Notes under the pieces: model-generated | The model's database searches: none | What the model saw: the letters and a program-made list of their open reading frames with translations, nothing else | What the model was told of the DNA's origin: nothing | Translations under genes and position numbers: made by a program | NCBI RefSeq assembly: GCF_001458395.1 | Contig: NZ_CYSR01000011.1 | Coordinates: forward strand, 248,001-312,000 | Length of the DNA: 64,000 bases | Reading direction: 5' to 3' | Source of the DNA: Leisingera aquaemixtae | GTDB lineage: Bacteria > Pseudomonadota > Alphaproteobacteria > Rhodobacterales > Rhodobacteraceae | Shown: piece by piece, positions 56,174 through 63,275 of the stretch | Layout of the letters: the number at the start of each line of letters is the position of its first letter | Numbering within the stretch: position 1 is the stretch's first letter

Positions 56174-56248
56174 GCCCGGGTAGCTCAGGGGTAGAGCAGT
56201 GGATTGAAAATCCTCGTGTCGGTGGTTCGATTCCGCCCCCGGGCACCA
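56174..56248 (+). tRNA. tRNA-Phe (GAA)
   Basis: A 75-base tRNA with acceptor stem GCCCGGG/CCCGGGC, discriminator A and encoded CCA. The anticodon loop TTGAAAA lies within GGATTGAAAATCC, giving GAA (Phe). It borders the putative genomic island and is the probable integration target. Confidence 0.95.
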
Positions 56249-56672
56249 CTTCAAATCATTGAAATATTTGAAGTTTTTCCAAAGCGTAGTGGTGTTGCGA
56301 AAAGCTGCGTATTGCTATGGGGACGCACTGGGGACGCAATTTCTCTCGCGTAGCCATCGGGGCCTTCACTACCTTTCACCTACTGTTAGGCTTCTCCGAG
56401 AGAAGCCGAGTGTGCTGTTTCTATAGCAGCCCGTTCAACTGATTCGTTTGCCAGTCTCTGAGACGAGAGTGACACCTGCCATTGAGGCCTGTGCAAACTT
56501 GACGAGGCGAGCGTCGCGCGACGCCTATGTGGGTGCTGGACTTACCGTTGTTTCACGACCACGAGTGAGTTCAAGTCCTACGTCAATCGTCTCTCGGCAT
56601 CCGGACCAGGTATAGCGGCGGAATAGAGGGAAAGGTGCTGGTCGCCCTCTCGGCCGCAATCAAGGAGGCATC
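56249..56672. other. Left island flank without genes
   Basis: About 420 bases between tRNA-Phe and the first island gene. Apart from the two TGGGGACGCA repeats nothing is recognisable. GGAGGCATC lies at the end as a ribosome-binding site for the pRiA4b ORF-3-like gene. Confidence 0.45.
56318..56338. repeat. Tandem TGGGGACGCA repeats, possible integrase arm sites
   Basis: TGGGGACGCA occurs at 56318-56327 and 56329-56338, an 11-base period about 70 bases after tRNA-Phe. An inverted copy lies at 63096-63105. Short direct repeats of this kind often flank tRNA-targeting tyrosine recombinases. Confidence 0.45.
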
Positions 56673-57281
56673 ATGGCAGATCAAATCGCGCGACTTCGGG
56701 TGGAACTCCTGCACATCGAACCACGCATCTGGCGGAGGGTGGAGGTCAGCCTGACCACAAACCTAAGCGCCTTGCATGAACTCATCCAAGCCGTAATGTC
56801 GTGGGAGAACGATCACCTTTATCAATTCTCGATCGGAGAGCGCTTCTATGGGGAACCCGGTCCCGAGGATGCAGTATTGGGACACAAGGCTTACCATGCC
56901 AAGTATATGCGGTTGGGAACCTTGGTCGGGCGCGGCATCGCAGAGTTCCAGTACACCTACGATTTTGGTGACAACTGGCAGCATAGCATTGCCATCGAAC
57001 ACATAGGCGTCGCGGATCCAGATGTAGACTATCCCATATATCTGGATGGTGAGCGCACCGCGCCGCCAGAAGATGTGGGTGGTCCGCCCGGTATCATGGA
57101 TTTCTTGGAGGCCATGGCCAATAACCATCACCCGGAACACAAAAACATGATCCGCTGGTACGGGCGCCCCTTCAATCCGATAGATTTCAGCGCATCAGAG
57201 GTTGCCGCGACCGTCCGCGACATTGCGGCGAAAAGGAAAGTTGCGAGGCTGGCGTTTGAGCGGAGTCGGCAGGAGAGGTAA
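56673..57281 (+). CDS. Plasmid pRiA4b ORF-3 family protein
   Basis: A 202-residue protein of the pRiA4b ORF-3 family: ARLRVELLHIEPRIWRRVEV at the start, LSALHELIQAVMSWENDHLYQF near residue 33, and FQYTYDFGDNWQHSIAIE near residue 92, the hallmark of the family. Its function is unknown; members are common on plasmids and islands. GGAGGCATC precedes the ATG. It appears intact. Confidence 0.88.
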   Translation: MADQIARLRVELLHIEPRIWRRVEVSLTTNLSALHELIQAVMSWENDHLYQFSIGERFYGEPGPEDAVLGHKAYHAKYMRLGTLVGRGIAEFQYTYDFGDNWQHSIAIEHIGVADPDVDYPIYLDGERTAPPEDVGGPPGIMDFLEAMANNHHPEHKNMIRWYGRPFNPIDFSASEVAATVRDIAAKRKVARLAFERSRQER

Positions 57282-58018
57282 GTTGGGGCTCCGCCTGCGC
57301 TTGACGTTTCAAGCGGGCGGCGCCTCTGGTGTCAACAGCGGCACCAAACCCAGCCACACGGCGGTTACCTCCGTGCTTCGCAGTTTTCCAACGGGTCCAA
57401 CTGCTGTTACAGCCCCGGCCTTGCGCGAGCCGGTCATTCTCGCCATTAATCTCCAAGATATCGATATCGTGGGCGAGACGCGCATCCCCGGCAACATTTC
57501 GCAAGCCTTACCGCGAGTGGCGCCCAGGGGAAATTCATGACCTGCTCTGGCTTCCACACTCAGAACGAAATTAAGAGTACACTGATACACCTTGAGCTGT
57601 TTGATCGCACCTAAAGCAATCCCGCTGCTCAGAGGCTGGCTGTCCGATTCGAGCCTCAGAGCAGGTTGAACGCCCGCTTACATTTGGTTTGTACTTCCAG
57701 AAATCTGTGCCCTGCCGCGGAACAGATTCACAAGACCGCAAACCCCGTCGCAAACTTGTCAGCAATTCTCAGAGCGATGCATTCTGGCGCCCATCCAGGT
57801 TTCCTCGACGCTCCAGCAAACTGAACATATCAATTAATTGGAGAGCGATTCAAAAAAAATCCACATTAAGATGAAAAGTACTCCTGCTTAGAGTACTCAA
57901 GAGTACTCTGATTTGGGATGCTGTCCGGACTGCGGCGGTCCGCCTGCCGGCCGCTTGGCAGGAAAGGTTTGGCAGTTTCATTTCAAGTTGTGAAACGGAG
58001 CCCGAACCAGCGCATGTC
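57282..58018. other. Non-coding or decayed stretch in the island
   Basis: About 740 bases with only short frames in both strands and none resembling a known family. The last part is AT-rich and holds three AGTACTC repeats at 57877-57908. Confidence 0.4.
57877..57909. repeat. Three AGTACTC repeats
   Basis: AGTACTC starts at 57877, 57892 and 57902; the last two are within GAGTACTC palindromes. They lie about 110 bases before the recombinase remnant and could be regulator or recombinase sites. Confidence 0.4.
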
Positions 58019-58711
58019 ATGCTCAGTCCTTTCACACTCAAGAGCATGGCTGAAGCGCTCGTGTCCTGGGCTCGCTTCCGGGAGAGCGATACAAGGAGCC
58101 CAATGACAGGTGCCGAATTGAACCGCTTTGCCGAGCATCTACAAACGATTGATGTCTGGCCTTCGGCGGTTCTTTCCACCACCACGAAGGTCTACATGTG
58201 CTACACTCATGTCCTGACACCAGGATTTCGCTCGATAGCTTGCCAAGCAGTTTTGCGAGAGTTGAAGGGACGTGCGCTGATCGCTGGACCATGCCAGAAA
58301 AGGCCTTCCCAGTTCATCCCTGCAAGTTTGATCTACCAGACCGGCCTGAACATGATAGACGAAGCCCAGGCAGGCTCCAGCCATGACATCCACTCCGCAA
58401 CCGTTTATCGGAACGGTCTCCTGCTGGCCATCGCGGCAGCAGTCCCCCTTAGGCGTCGCGCCTTGGCAAGCCTTGATCTGGCAACCAGCTTTCGCCTAGA
58501 AGAGCGCCCTGTCATCCAGCTCGATATTGCAGGACGTTTTTTGAAGCTCCGGGAGGGGCGAAAGAGCTTTGAGCGCTATCAGGCGCACCTCACCAGCCCT
58601 ACTCCTCCGCATAGAACTGGGCGAATTGCGCTTTCAGACAATGCCGCGGGGAACCGGAGAGTGCGAGGGCTTGATCGAATATTCCCTGGCGGAGGCTCGC
58701 CGCTCTTTTAA
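58019..58711 (+). pseudogene. Truncated tyrosine recombinase/integrase
   Basis: The reading frame of 230 residues keeps the SAM-like N-terminal and the first catalytic-domain part of a phage-type integrase: SLIYQTGLNMIDEAQ and YRNGLLLAIAAAVPLRRRALASLDL near residue 130, which includes the first catalytic Arg region. After about residue 185 (LREGRKSFERY) the sequence no longer matches, and the H-x-x-R and nucleophilic Tyr are absent. Its end overlaps the antisense GIY-YIG gene. It is very probably inactive. It points to the former integration module of the island. Confidence 0.6.
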
Positions 58712-59243
58712 GAAAGAGCGGTTTAATTTTTCTGTTGTGACGAGCAAGAAGCACAGGGGATATTGTATATAGCGCCCAGCGGCATGGTAGGTCGAACCAG
58801 GCCGAAGGCATGCCAAATGCGTGGAGAATGGTTCTCGCGATACAGATCGCGATGGAAATACCTTCGGGGCGGTCGGCGTTCCATGCGACGTCTTCGAGTA
58901 GTACAACATCTCTTTTGTTTGTGAGAGATAGAGGAGTGCCGTGACCCCAAAGGAGGGTGTGTAGAGCCGAAATACACAGCTTCTCCAGTTCGAGCCGCGC
59001 ATCTCTTGACGGGAACCGATGCGGATTTAGAATTATGCATATAATAGTATCACCGAAGCCCTGTTCCCGCAGGCTGTCCATCAACCGACTGGCCAGATCA
59101 GCAGATTCCCCAAGGTATACCCGATCATCGGCGTGAAATGCGTAGAGGGCGGCCCCGCGAGGCTGCCAGTTGTCAAGATGTCGGCGCGGCATGCAGTAGA
59201 TGTCCAAGAACGGGCTAAAGGGCAAAACCTGATGGAAAGTCAT
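58599..59243 (-). CDS. GIY-YIG-like nuclease family protein
   Basis: A 214-residue protein whose middle resembles a GIY-YIG nuclease domain: ALYAF at residues 32-36 in place of GIY, VYLGES at 42-47 in place of YIG, Arg53, the Glu in DARLELEKL (85 or 87), and Asn109 in SLTNKR. The C-terminal part (about 120-214) is unrecognised. It starts 40 bases after the AAA+ protease gene with AGGAGG upstream of ATG 59243, so it is the second gene of a two-gene operon. Function is unknown; the nuclease call is by motif order only, and the glycine substitution may affect activity. Confidence 0.6.
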   Translation of the reverse strand: MTFHQVLPFSPFLDIYCMPRRHLDNWQPRGAALYAFHADDRVYLGESADLASRLMDSLREQGFGDTIICIILNPHRFPSRDARLELEKLCISALHTLLWGHGTPLSLTNKRDVVLLEDVAWNADRPEGISIAICIARTILHAFGMPSAWFDLPCRWALYTISPVLLARHNRKIKPLFLKRAASLRQGIFDQALALSGSPRHCLKAQFAQFYAEE

Positions 59244-59283
59244 GCGGTGTCCTCCTGTTGTTGATGAAAAAGGACGGTGGGAG

Positions 59284-61347
59284 CTAGTTGCTGCCGGTGA
59301 TCTGGCTGAGCCAAGGCCACAGCTCTTCAGCATTCATTTCGCGCTGAAGGATCAGCGCACCGGCAAGGCTCTCGAGCAGATCCCGGTGCGGCGCTAGGAG
59401 GTCTCGCGCATTTTGCTCGAACTGTTGGAGCTTGACGCGCACACGGTCCCAATCCGCCCTGGAAAGCCGCGCCATGTCGGGCTCACCGAGCCAGGCGGGG
59501 CCATGGATGCCGAGGCCGAACACCTGATCACAATGCAACTGCAGGCGGGTTGCACGTTCAAGATCGCTGCCCGGACCACCGCCACTGCCAGCGCTGACAT
59601 CCCCGAGCACCAGGTGCTCCGCGGCACGCCCGGCGAGGAGGATTGCCATCTCGCCCTCGAACTCGTGGGTGGTGCCCTCGATGATCGCGGTTCCCCGGGT
59701 CGTCATCCCTACATCTTTCGTGATCACGATGCGTTCGACGGCCGATGCACCGAGCAGCAGTGCCGTGACAAAGGCGTGGCCGGCTTCATGCAGTGCAATG
59801 CGCCGCTCCAGAGCGGGGCGCTCCGGGCGGTTGCACTTCAGGTGCGCGGTAAAATAACTAGCATCGAAGGGGATGCCTTCGCGACGCGCCGTGGCCTTTG
59901 CCGCGCGGACCGTTGCGTCGATCTCCGCCGGCGTTTGGCCGACGCAGAGGCGTGCCAGACCCAACACCTCCTCGGGCTCCGTGAACACTTGCCGGAGCAT
60001 GTGAGCGACCTGCCGAAGATGCGGCCGCCCCAGTTCGACGACTTTGTCGAAGCGCCCTGGTCTGCAAATGGCCGGATCAATCGTGTCCACGGCGTTGCAA
60101 GCTCCCAAGAGGAGGGTGCCGTCAACCGCAAGAAACTTGTCTATTTCTTTGAGCAGCACGTTGATTACTTGCCGGCGATAGTTGCTGTTGTGCTGATCTC
60201 GGCCGTCGCGCGACCCGAATGAGTCGATCTCGTCGATAAAAACGATGCAAGGACGCTGCGCAGCCGCCTGGGAAAATGTACCGAGCATGGCGTTAAGCAT
60301 GTGCCCAAGATGTCCCCGTGCCTGCCATTCGGCTGCACTCGCGATGATGATCGGAAGGCCCGCCGATCTTGCGGTGGCCTGCGCAAGCATCGTTTTTCCT
60401 GTGCCTGGATCGCCGTAAAGAAGCAGCGAGCGCGGGATGTCAGACCAGCTCGCGGTACCCTGCAGGCAAGCCTGCACGTCAGCGGCGAGGGCCGCCGCCG
60501 CCTGGTGGGCAGCGGAATTGCCACCGATCTCTGCCAGTGTCAGGGCCTCCTCCCGGACAGGGCGACGTGGCCGTGTCAGCTTCTGCAGCTTGCGCGCCGC
60601 GTTTTGCGCTGTGGGCGCCCGTAGGGCCATGAGCAATGCCGGGTACTCGAGCCGCGCGAGGGTTTCACGGTCCGGGAGTAGACGCGCGTGCTCCGCCTCG
60701 CCTACCATGTTGTAGTGGTGCGTGATCAGCATAAATAGGATCTGCCGATCGACGGGGGCAAGGCGCTGCGCTTCGGGCAGAGCCCGCCGAAGGGGAGCGG
60801 AAAACTCGAACCCGTCTGGCACCAAGATGAGCATCGGTGCCGGAAACAGGAGCGCCTCCCGAATAGTGTCTTCGAAGACGTCGCGCATGTGGCTAGAGAT
60901 GTCTCCAGAACTGCGGAACTGTGGTGCGCACAGTTGAAGCACGGGTTCGGCCGGATGACGGGGGCCGCGGGTGTATACGCGCATGTCCGGCGGCACTAGA
61001 CTGTGTTTCAGAAGGTATTCCATCCCGCTCAGCTCGCGTGCGTTGATGCCGCCCAGCACCGTCACGGATCCGGAGCTGAGAACCTGACCCCGAAAGCACT
61101 GCTCCGAGCCCCAGGTCGCAGCCCATCGGATGAGCAGGAGTAGGTGGTCTGGGTGAGGCCCTATGGCATCAGTGTCATCGGAGTGCTTCTCCGCCCGGCT
61201 GGCGGCTGTGGCCACAGCGGGAGCGCCGGCATGAGCAGGCGAGCTGTCGCTGCCCGCGTGGTGGCGTCGAATCAGAGCACGGGCGAAAGGCGCCCACTCT
61301 GGCAGGCGGGGTTTGGGATGATCATCTGGGGAAGGGTCTATGGTCAC
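59284..61347 (-). CDS. FtsH-like AAA+ zinc metalloprotease without membrane segments
   Basis: A 687-residue protein. Residues 1-265 match no family I know and lack membrane helices. An AAA+ module follows: Walker A GDPGTGKT at 312-319, Walker B IVFIDEID at 368-375, and the arginine-finger region CRPGRFD at 428-434. The C-terminal part has the zinc motif HEAGH at 520-524 and the third-ligand region GSDLERAT at 593-600, both as in FtsH (M41). So it should be an ATP-driven protease, but soluble, unlike FtsH. The GTG start has GAGAGGAG upstream. It is co-transcribed with the GIY-YIG-like gene. All catalytic motifs are intact. Confidence 0.8.
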   Translation of the reverse strand: MTIDPSPDDHPKPRLPEWAPFARALIRRHHAGSDSSPAHAGAPAVATAASRAEKHSDDTDAIGPHPDHLLLLIRWAATWGSEQCFRGQVLSSGSVTVLGGINARELSGMEYLLKHSLVPPDMRVYTRGPRHPAEPVLQLCAPQFRSSGDISSHMRDVFEDTIREALLFPAPMLILVPDGFEFSAPLRRALPEAQRLAPVDRQILFMLITHHYNMVGEAEHARLLPDRETLARLEYPALLMALRAPTAQNAARKLQKLTRPRRPVREEALTLAEIGGNSAAHQAAAALAADVQACLQGTASWSDIPRSLLLYGDPGTGKTMLAQATARSAGLPIIIASAAEWQARGHLGHMLNAMLGTFSQAAAQRPCIVFIDEIDSFGSRDGRDQHNSNYRRQVINVLLKEIDKFLAVDGTLLLGACNAVDTIDPAICRPGRFDKVVELGRPHLRQVAHMLRQVFTEPEEVLGLARLCVGQTPAEIDATVRAAKATARREGIPFDASYFTAHLKCNRPERPALERRIALHEAGHAFVTALLLGASAVERIVITKDVGMTTRGTAIIEGTTHEFEGEMAILLAGRAAEHLVLGDVSAGSGGGPGSDLERATRLQLHCDQVFGLGIHGPAWLGEPDMARLSRADWDRVRVKLQQFEQNARDLLAPHRDLLESLAGALILQREMNAEELWPWLSQITGSN

Positions 61348-62054
61348 TGTACGCTCCTCTCGGGAGGGTGCCCAATAGGGGGGGGCTGCGCGGGACGCAA
61401 GAGTCTAATTTTCCGTGTAGTGAATTGAAAATATTGATTTTTTTGTTTTCGCACATGTCAGTTTCGGGGTTTCTGAACGCAGGCCTGAGCCGCTTTGGTG
61501 CAGTGCGCCTCTTGTTCCATTGGCATCTCCAGCAGCGTAGCAAGTGCCGGGCTTGCGAAAATCAATTCAGCAGACAGTTTTTCGCATTGCGCCGATCCGG
61601 GGCGGCGGGCCGGAGTAACTTAATGCCACGTTCGGGATGCGATGTCCTACTGCTGGCGGCTTACGGCTTCGGCGAAGATAGTGGCGTTAGACAGCTTGGC
61701 ATGGCCAAAACATTTCTGCAGCTAGTGGATTGGCACGCCCAGGACCGTGGCATGTACGCCAAAGCCTTGGCGCAGGTCCTTCTGACTGCGGTGTTTCGTG
61801 GAATGTTCCCGGTTCTTCAGGGCGAGTCTTGAGGGCCGTAAGCGGGGAGGCCATAGTGGCAGGCCTAAGCAAGATCGCGCTCTACCGGAATGTGCATCAG
61901 CTTGGTCTTGACCCGCCAGTTGAGAGCTCACTCATTGGTGGGAGCGCCGCTGCGGAGCATTTTCCGCGGCGGCTGGGCTCCTGATCCGACCCGAACTCCC
62001 CCGAAACGAGTTTGCGAAAAACTGGCTTTCGGAACGATGCCGTTTGACCGCCCT
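61348..62054. other. Island stretch without recognisable genes
   Basis: The first part should hold the leftward promoter of the protease gene. From about 61430 to 62050 frames are open but short, and none resembles a family I know. Probably decayed sequence. Confidence 0.4.
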
Positions 62055-62348
62055 TGGGTTCGGAGACTGCGATGGGACAGCGTCAGCGACATAGCCGAGA
62101 TCCTAGTTGATTGCCGACGAGTGTTTCTATGCCATTATCCGAAGATTACCTTTCCGGGTGCCCGCCGCAAAGCGCTTCAGCTGGTCGGCCACGTCCACAA
62201 AAATCGGCCGGGAACGCGCAACAGCGTGAATGTTGGCGCCGACTTATGGGGTTTTCGACCGGTGAGCCTGTCAGAGATCGAGCAGCGTGCCCGAAGTTTG
62301 CCTGTGAACCATTACTGGGAAGCGGTGGAACCTGGTTGTGATCTATGA
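62055..62348 (+). pseudogene. C-terminal fragment of a calcineurin-like phosphoesterase
   Basis: The frame from about 62055 to the stop reads like the second half of a metallophosphoesterase of the phage/YfcE-like type: VFLCHYPKITFPGARRKALQ, then LVGHVHKN, the metal-binding GHxH motif, then VNVGADLWGFRPVSLSEIEQ. The N-terminal metal-binding motifs (DxH, GDxxD, GNHD) cannot be found upstream in any frame. It is therefore a remnant, another sign of decay in the island. Confidence 0.55.
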
Positions 62349-63275
62349 ACCGTCGGTTGCAGCTGTCCGGGCCGCATCGGTGCAGCCTCAAGGGGACCGC
62401 AAGCGCGAAACCAACTGTGCCTCCCATCCAAAGCGGCCTATCAACCGCTCATGCACATTGACGGCAACGCTGCGGTCAGCACCAGTGGCGGCGAAGCGCA
62501 GAAAGCGCCATTTGCAGAGTCACACTCCTGTCGCCGGTCGGCCGCGCAAACCGACTTCAAATAGCTGCGGCGCGTCCCGTCATTCCTGCCGTTCGCTGTA
62601 ATTGCAAAGTTACAGGCCGAACGACCTCATCTTGTCGGAACGAGGCGGACGTAGCGTTTCGGCGGATCGGGCGAGCAACTTGAAACCGCTGCAGGTGCTC
62701 AGTTCCGCGATCTTGACAGGAAAAACTGACGTTCATCACCCGATGATGTTCAGTTGGCCCGCACTTGGGTTGAGAAGGCGGCTGGCTGTGCGAAGCAAGG
62801 CATCGCAGCCGAAGCAACAGACCAACGAGAGGAGTTCCTCTGCTCGTGTAAGTACCGCCAGAACGGCAAGCCGCGATTTGTGTCCGCTCTGGACCGCGCA
62901 GAATCACAATCAAGGCGGACGCCCGCCCCCCCTTAGCAAAACCAGCGTTAAACCGGATGATCATGGCAACGAGCTCGCCCTGATCAAACTTGGGCGCCTC
63001 ACGCGGAAACACTACCGTGACCGTCATTAAGGGGTTGGTAACCATATTCAAGTTGTGCGGATATTTAGTGTATCAAGGATGAAATTCATACTACATGCGT
63101 CCCCAAGCTCTATTTTTTCTTTGCTCTAATTATCAAAAGGCAGCATTCGGCCGCGCAATAAAGTTGCGAAAGGAAGCGAGGCGTTACATGGGATTTGATG
63201 CATTGAACTTTTTGGAAACTTTTTTGATGAAGTAATGAATTGTTCAGTGAGTTTTGCCTTGAGGAGGCACGTATA
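62349..63275. other. Right end of the island and spacer to the next gene
   Basis: No gene can be supported. Open frames on both strands (for example 62557-63051) have no family resemblance and unlikely composition. The inverted TGCGTCCCCA repeat lies at 63096-63105. From about 63060 on, the sequence becomes AT-rich and should hold the promoter of the CHASE3 gene, which has GAGGAGG at 63261-63267. Confidence 0.4.
63096..63105. repeat. Inverted TGCGTCCCCA repeat at right island edge
   Basis: The exact reverse complement of the two TGGGGACGCA repeats at 56318 and 56329, placed about 170 bases before the next gene. Confidence 0.4.

Follow-up and report, generated by a model that had tools for sequence, protein, structure and literature searches.

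The IetAS defense system consists of two proteins, an AAA ATPase and a distinct serine protease. The FtsH-like domain PF06480 has been noted in ietA (accessible part of PMC10924106). The accessible text of Tuck et al. 2025 (PMC12799240) describes recurrently acquired antiviral pairs of a metallo-beta-lactamase (MBL)-fold nuclease and a trypsin-like or caspase-type protease, and SNIPE, in the accessible sections of PMC13190303, is a single membrane-anchored anti-phage protein combining a GIY-YIG nuclease with DUF4041. A genomic-island copy of membrane FtsH has been described in Pseudomonas, in a source accessible in part. Here, we analyze two neighboring genes in a 64,000-nucleotide stretch of the Leisingera aquaemixtae genome (contig NZ_CYSR01000011.1, positions 248,001 to 312,000), hereafter the window. 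One open reading frame (ORF1) encodes an apparently soluble AAA+/M41 (FtsH-like) zinc metalloprotease and the other (ORF2) a GIY-YIG-type putative nuclease. We tentatively read the pair as one lineage of a mobile protease–nuclease module in which the protease controls an exchangeable nuclease, with a net effect of defense against invaders; this reading is plausible, though short of probable.

ORF1 has in common with FtsH an AAA+ motor and an M41 zinc protease with intact catalytic residues, but FtsH is a membrane protease, whereas ORF1 has no evident membrane segment, carries a different N-terminal domain, and belongs to a group found beside nuclease-like genes. The best PADLOC match of ORF1 is IetA (E 1.7e-25), restricted to the AAA part that the two proteins share. 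Unlike IetAS, ORF1 fuses its AAA part to M41 and has a nuclease-like partner; no search was made for a separate serine protease in its vicinity. The pairs of Tuck et al. resemble the module in the adjacency of nuclease (putative in the module) and protease genes and differ in their enzymes, an MBL-fold nuclease and a trypsin-like or caspase protease as opposed to an M41 protease with GIY-YIG-type, PD-(D/E)XK-like, or CoiA-like partners; in the accessible main text of PMC12799240, the terms AAA, FtsH, M41, metalloprotease, and GIY-YIG do not occur. SNIPE shares with the module a GIY-YIG-type nuclease domain (putative in the module), which it uses in defense, and FtsH appears in the accessible part of that study as a labeling control only (PMC13190303). 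A literature search, mostly without subscription papers, found no description of this protease–nuclease pair, in agreement with the original prediction, made from the sequence of the window, that the pair is undescribed. We class the module as a variant among nuclease–protease systems that stands outside each of the families tested.

The protease and the putative nuclease in the window

ORF1 (59284..61347, minus strand, 687 amino acids) is identified from Pfam matches, motifs, and alignments, and its reading frame, which starts with GTG, is intact. An AAA domain spans res. 308–440 (Pfam E 3.2e-31) and a Peptidase_M41 domain res. 515–675 (E 2.3e-12), with the Walker A, Walker B, and HEAGH motifs at res. 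312–318, 370–375, and 520–524, respectively. When 19 sequences, the window protein among them, are aligned, no variation is seen at K318, D372, E373, N418, R429, R432, H520, E521, H524, and D595. The AAA+ and M41 parts of the protease family profile align over their full length with solved FtsH structures; the score of ORF1 against the NCBIfam FtsH model (TIGR01241) is 160.5 bits, below the cut-off of 600, and the protease matches PADLOC models in its AAA part only. The maximum 19-residue hydropathy of ORF1 is 1.7, versus 2.4–2.6 in four FtsH-type proteins, two from the same genome and two from other genomes. Because this peak lies below those of the FtsH-type proteins, the sequence indicates a soluble protein lacking a membrane segment.

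The N-terminal region of ORF1 (res. ~60–300, hereafter the N-domain) is partly conserved across a 23-sequence alignment and has neither a Pfam match nor a credible sequence match in the PDB by profile search (best E 0.35). Its interpretation as a degenerate AAA domain was not supported, with hhalign giving ~4% probability against the family's own AAA domain and the PDB profile search returning nothing credible. The prediction of a protease that keeps all AAA+ and M41 motifs, lacks a membrane segment, and has a new N-terminal domain is thus upheld in all three parts. The same genome holds two further copies of the protease, 42% (L015, G000:C17) and 39% (L016, G000:C40:278500-290000) identical to ORF1. 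The copy on C40 has a zinc-finger GIY-YIG partner, and the copy on C17 has IS481-type transposase debris upstream.

ORF2 (58599..59243, minus strand, 214 amino acids) lies on the strand of ORF1 and starts 40 nt beyond its stop. Although the open frame extends at most over 58599-59333, the ATG at 59243 is the preferred start because a Shine–Dalgarno sequence (AGGAGG) lies upstream of it and the 30-codon extension to 59333 lacks the codon-position GC pattern of ORF2. The interval first proposed for the cassette, 59243-61347, takes in ORF1 but no more of ORF2 than its start codon. Five residues of ORF2, Tyr43, Gly45, Arg53, Glu87, and Asn109, are invariant in four sequences, the window protein and three relatives (25–33% identical). 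They fit an ordered series of Tyr, Tyr-x-Gly, Arg, Glu, and Asn that we take to be the GIY-YIG motif set. The first motif reads ALY in the window and GIY in L080 and L082, matching the predicted motif order with an altered first motif; the relative in L081 was aligned from its annotated start, without the first-motif region.

The database matches of ORF2 count against our reading of the pair: ORF2 has no Pfam match, its NCBIfam and PADLOC matches are weak (excinuclease Cho, E 0.18; PDC-S14, E 0.02), and the UvrC GIY-YIG domains, which are the sole matches of its profile in the PDB up to E 10, are also weak (E ~0.5). The relative in L082 gives a GIY-YIG match at E 0.093 and that in L081 none. 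Modeling of both proteins, proposed with the original prediction, was of limited use: the single-sequence model of ORF1 is poor (mean pLDDT 38.3), and the AlphaFold single-sequence model of ORF2 is of low confidence (mean pLDDT 41.8), although its strand-strand-helix-strand-helix order matches GIY-YIG. By its conserved residues, ORF2 is a GIY-YIG-type putative nuclease, apparently of another type than the zinc-finger GIY-YIG family (F1) of related loci.

The protease family and the exchange of its partners

We searched 394 Rhodobacteraceae genomes, from the bacterial family to which the window belongs, with profiles and detected the N-domain in 38, with 50 matches. Thirty-nine matches cover at least 200 of 243 positions and are treated as full length; the 11 partial ones were set aside. 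Beside 34 of the 39 full-length copies lies a nearby nuclease-like gene on the same strand, of one of four types: F1 (24 copies), the PD-(D/E)XK-like family F17 (seven), CoiA-like (two), and ORF2 (one). No nuclease was recognized beside the other five. F1 is located upstream of the protease on the same strand, with 210–888 nt between the matched stretches (24/39), and a protease is found downstream of 26 of 35 F1 matches, two of these 26 with a partial N-domain only. A protease–nuclease pairing, as in the original prediction, thus recurs (34/39), and the exact ORF2 type is one lineage within it (1/39).

The partner families differ in how well they are assigned. Four of six F1 proteins scanned give weak MUG113/T5orf172 matches, one above the T5orf172 cut-off; Tyr200 and Glu255 are kept in all 43 aligned sequences and Lys214 and Arg224 in 42. 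Compared with MUG113/T5orf172-type GIY-YIG proteins, F1 has additional conserved Cys pairs resembling those of zinc fingers, and ORF2 is of another GIY-YIG type. The class of F17 is based on PDDEXK_5, which scores above the curated threshold in L086, weakly in L067, L095, and L169, and without a match in L063, L164, and L172 (L165 and L170 were outside the scan); its residues E51, D75, Q88, and K90 are kept in 9/9 aligned sequences. The CoiA-like assignment comes from weak matches (E 0.05–0.13). Three F1 proteins, one CoiA-like protein, and one protein of F4, a small gene without a Pfam match, have no PADLOC hit at E 0.1, and one F17 protein has a weak homing-endonuclease match only (E 0.021).

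In a pooled set of 81 loci examined, 63 of which have an N-domain protease, the partners are F1 (42), F17 (10), ORF2-type (3), CoiA-like (2), and none (6); this set is biased, since 12 loci (L179–L190) were picked for an adjacent F1 and at least three genomes give near-identical copies. F4 occurs within 3 kb in 44 of the 63 pooled loci, and an F4-type gene often precedes the nuclease, but it is absent from the window module. Outside the family, a full-length N-domain was found in one further genome (G675, with F17 upstream) among 289 of the class. More distant Hyphomicrobiales proteases, with little N-domain similarity, lie near a 3'-5' exonuclease or metallophosphoesterases. On Hyphomicrobiales plasmids (L093, which is Methylorubrum pCMU01, and L089, L091, L092, and L094), a related AAA-M41 protease with a different N-terminus lies near one or another of these genes, a gene for a protein of ~329 amino acids, or DUF6634 genes, an arrangement suggestive of a possible sister system.

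A quick tree of 46 proteases, with SH-aLRT support only, requires nine parsimony changes of partner type when 'none' is one of five states, compared with a possible minimum of 4 and a shuffled mean of 16.0. F17 alone requires five changes, three of them forced by well-supported branches, and such branches force four for F1. The three ORF2-type proteases form one clade (support 100), sister to three F1-bearing proteases (93), inside a clade of eight (97). Because this clade lies among F1-bearing lineages, ORF2 in the window lineage looks like a replacement of the zinc-finger GIY-YIG partner. The window module lacks both F1 and the small upstream gene, ORF2 lies downstream of the protease instead, and no convincing remnant of the usual upstream partner was found near this copy (best E 0.005, in the wrong place). 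As judged from these genes and the tree, the nuclease partner is exchangeable, and its class differs between protease lineages.

ORF2-type genes are rare, with four clear instances in the window and on three plasmids. The closest protease relatives found are encoded on plasmids of Alloyangia pacifica (59% identical) and Thioclava sp. GXIMD4216 (61%), each followed by an ORF2 relative 42–45 nt downstream and preceded by a small integrase (PF00589 in Thioclava, annotated as integrase in Alloyangia). Around the fourth clear instance (L082, on a Pseudosulfitobacter plasmid), the 20 kb examined contain no such protease. Whether the GIY-YIG gene always adjoins the protease was asked at the outset: ORF2 directly follows it in three of the four instances (window, Alloyangia, and Thioclava), and elsewhere the partner classes vary. 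In the 394 family genomes, the ORF2 profile finds the L. aquaemixtae genome itself and two short matches of marginal significance (E 2.5e-5 and 8.3e-4); two pattern scans of genome contigs revealed no relatives, and among 21 genomes of the genus, ORF2 relatives are confined to this one. ORF2 and F1, the two families searched in a phage collection, have no match there. Against viral contigs, the protease alignment matches at least 49 AAA-containing loci, nearly all in the AAA region only and two reaching M41. ORF2 evolves faster than the protease: L080 and L081 are 83% identical in the protease and 47% in ORF2.

The ORF2 relative on the Thioclava plasmid is adjoined by a SAVED effector and a nucleotidyltransferase. 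Near the ORF2-type gene, the Alloyangia (L080/L090) and Pseudosulfitobacter plasmids share genes for proteins of ~190–204, ~620, and ~450–515 amino acids, one with a weak phage-integrase match, and genes of similar size occur on the Thioclava plasmid.

The ratio of nonsynonymous to synonymous rates (dN/dS) is 0.20–0.36 for seven proteases and 0.21–0.38 for six F1 genes of the genus, which indicates purifying selection on both. The selected function proposed for the window pair thus receives support from its relatives, but for the window ORF2 itself synonymous changes are saturated.

The island and its mobile setting

The window pair lies in an island whose left edge is a tRNA-Phe(GAA) gene (56174..56248, plus strand), placed by flank conservation: the sequence to its left is present in 21/21 genomes of the genus, this one included. 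The G+C content is 58% in 56250-63100 versus 64% in 1-56000. Contig C3 of this genome carries, next to integrase-like frames (integrases named by eye), a 71-bp, 94% repeat that covers the 3' part of the tRNA-Phe gene. The gene looks like a recurrent integration site in the genus. Partial 3' repeats of it are seen elsewhere in G006, G010, G012, G016, and G017. Neither the right edge of the island nor a direct repeat closing it was found within the window; the right flank has short or low-identity matches only in the genus, so the island seems to extend past the window end.

An integrase remnant of 56 residues (61626..61793, minus strand) beside ORF1 is 59–61% identical to the C-terminal end of the small integrase of the plasmid relatives. 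The window integrase has been reduced to this remnant; therefore, the protease and nuclease genes stayed open while a former neighbor decayed, as in the intact operon within a decayed island that had been predicted. Just within the island edge is an intact PRiA4_ORF3 (plasmid pRiA4b ORF-3-like) gene (56673-57281, plus strand; Pfam E 3.6e-56).

Many module copies are plasmid-borne or have tRNA genes and recombinases as neighbors. Of 32 loci scanned for tRNAs, 13 (L015, L049, L051, L052, L054-L057, L059, L062, L063, L065, and L079) have a tRNA-Met(CAT) gene overlapping the end of the large serine recombinase gene, which marks a recurrent integration site.

Defense-rich surroundings and possible functions

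We compared PADLOC matches in 130 of 142 ORFs from 33 module loci (12 were dropped by hand as module genes, one integrase, or frames that overlap module genes) and in 119 of 120 ORFs from 20 chromosomal stretches of related genomes. At E 1e-10, 79 families matched among the neighbor ORFs versus nine among the controls, although the families overlap strongly, one Thioclava protein alone matching 15. At least eight differently named components lie near modules: DruE, a CBASS cyclase, a SAVED effector, PD-T7-1, PD-T7-5, MzaC, MzaE, and a type II methyltransferase; among the matches listed, each PADLOC family hits one neighbor ORF. On the original question of whether the neighbors are defense genes, this count shows PADLOC defense families matched more often near modules than in the controls, and many of the contexts are mobile. 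Because the families overlap and the controls are ordinary chromosomal regions that themselves held a DRT reverse transcriptase match, along with RtcR, GlgB, and mad3, the comparison shows defense-rich or mobile surroundings and not function. Conserved neighbors under selection in such places are as far as the sequences reach; the defense role and the direction of control are what we infer beyond them.

In the mechanism that we tentatively favor, the N-domain, with the small protein where present, would sense an invader or recognize the partner. The protease, which like other members of its family is presumably hexameric, would then act on the nuclease or on a nuclease-bound protein so that DNA is cut only when appropriate, and the net effect would be defense against phages or competing mobile elements. 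Licensing, in which activity depends on the protease or is unblocked by it, appears the likelier direction, since some loci keep an intact nuclease gene although their protease is broken or absent. Such F1 genes are found in L066, L068, L074, L175, L177, and L178, and no N-domain match was obtained in the L178 genome (G101). In L178 (G101:C1:8500-18500), the intact F1 has no protease nearby and lies between ordinary chromosomal genes, preceded, as judged by eye, by what may be an F4-like frame. These loci argue against a protease that must restrain a lethal nuclease and mildly for one that licenses or helps it.

Several points weaken this line of argument. In the genomes of L066, L074, and L177, another protease copy is intact and could act in trans, frameshifts in draft genomes may be errors, and licensing as argued here assumes a toxic nuclease. 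FtsH-type proteases degrade whole proteins processively, which suits clearance more than precise cutting, and the two genes are neighbors, often on mobile elements. These points would fit an addiction arrangement: the nuclease would be a toxin continually degraded by the protease, whose loss or saturation, upon element loss or phage shut-off, would free the nuclease to kill or arrest the cell and thereby stabilize the island or abort infection. We consider this unlikely, as F1 persists intact in the six loci above, even with half of them possibly protected by the second copy. Also against a purely defensive role, 30 of the 63 pooled loci have a large serine recombinase no more than 3 kb from the protease. 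Together with the tRNA-Met overlaps (13/32) and the integrase beside ORF2-type modules, this would fit a part in element maintenance or homing, with the nuclease nicking or cutting a target for transfer, integration, or exclusion of rivals and the protease stripping or removing recombination proteins from DNA; the PDDEXK_5 and GIY-YIG classes are also found in homing endonucleases. However, 33/63 loci have no same-strand recombinase within 3 kb (some are cut by contig ends), most of these 33 keep the nuclease–protease order, and the recombinase types vary between lineages, which leaves such a role improbable in our estimate. Least credible by far is that the nuclease-like genes are cargo with no relation to the protease, which would serve general quality control as a soluble enzyme. 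The AAA and M41 parts of the protease do resemble ordinary FtsH, and five of the 39 full-length copies have no recognized nuclease (L015, with insertion-sequence debris; L168, at a contig start; L171, on a short contig; L173; and L174), but chance neighbors would hardly give a nearby same-strand nuclease-like gene of four types in the remaining 34, and the patchy presence in 38/394 genomes is not a core distribution.

Returning to the licensing mechanism and extending it, with somewhat greater reserve, to the whole family, we suggest that these loci may be undescribed mobile immune modules, mainly of one alphaproteobacterial family, in which a conserved soluble AAA+/M41 protease with its own N-domain, usually with a small upstream gene, forms a fixed control unit combined with four repeatedly swapped nuclease types and ATP-driven unfolding or proteolysis licenses DNA cleavage. 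The window pair belongs to what looks like a possibly defensive family of mobile cassettes in marine-type bacteria. If this is true, an ATP-powered unfoldase–protease would join the few known bacterial controls on a DNA-cutting effector, and the modules would form a natural series with a constant controller and a changing nuclease, which would allow tests of how a new effector comes to be accepted by its controller. With its unrecognized N-domain, the group of soluble FtsH-like proteases is a lead on how M41 proteases act away from membranes.

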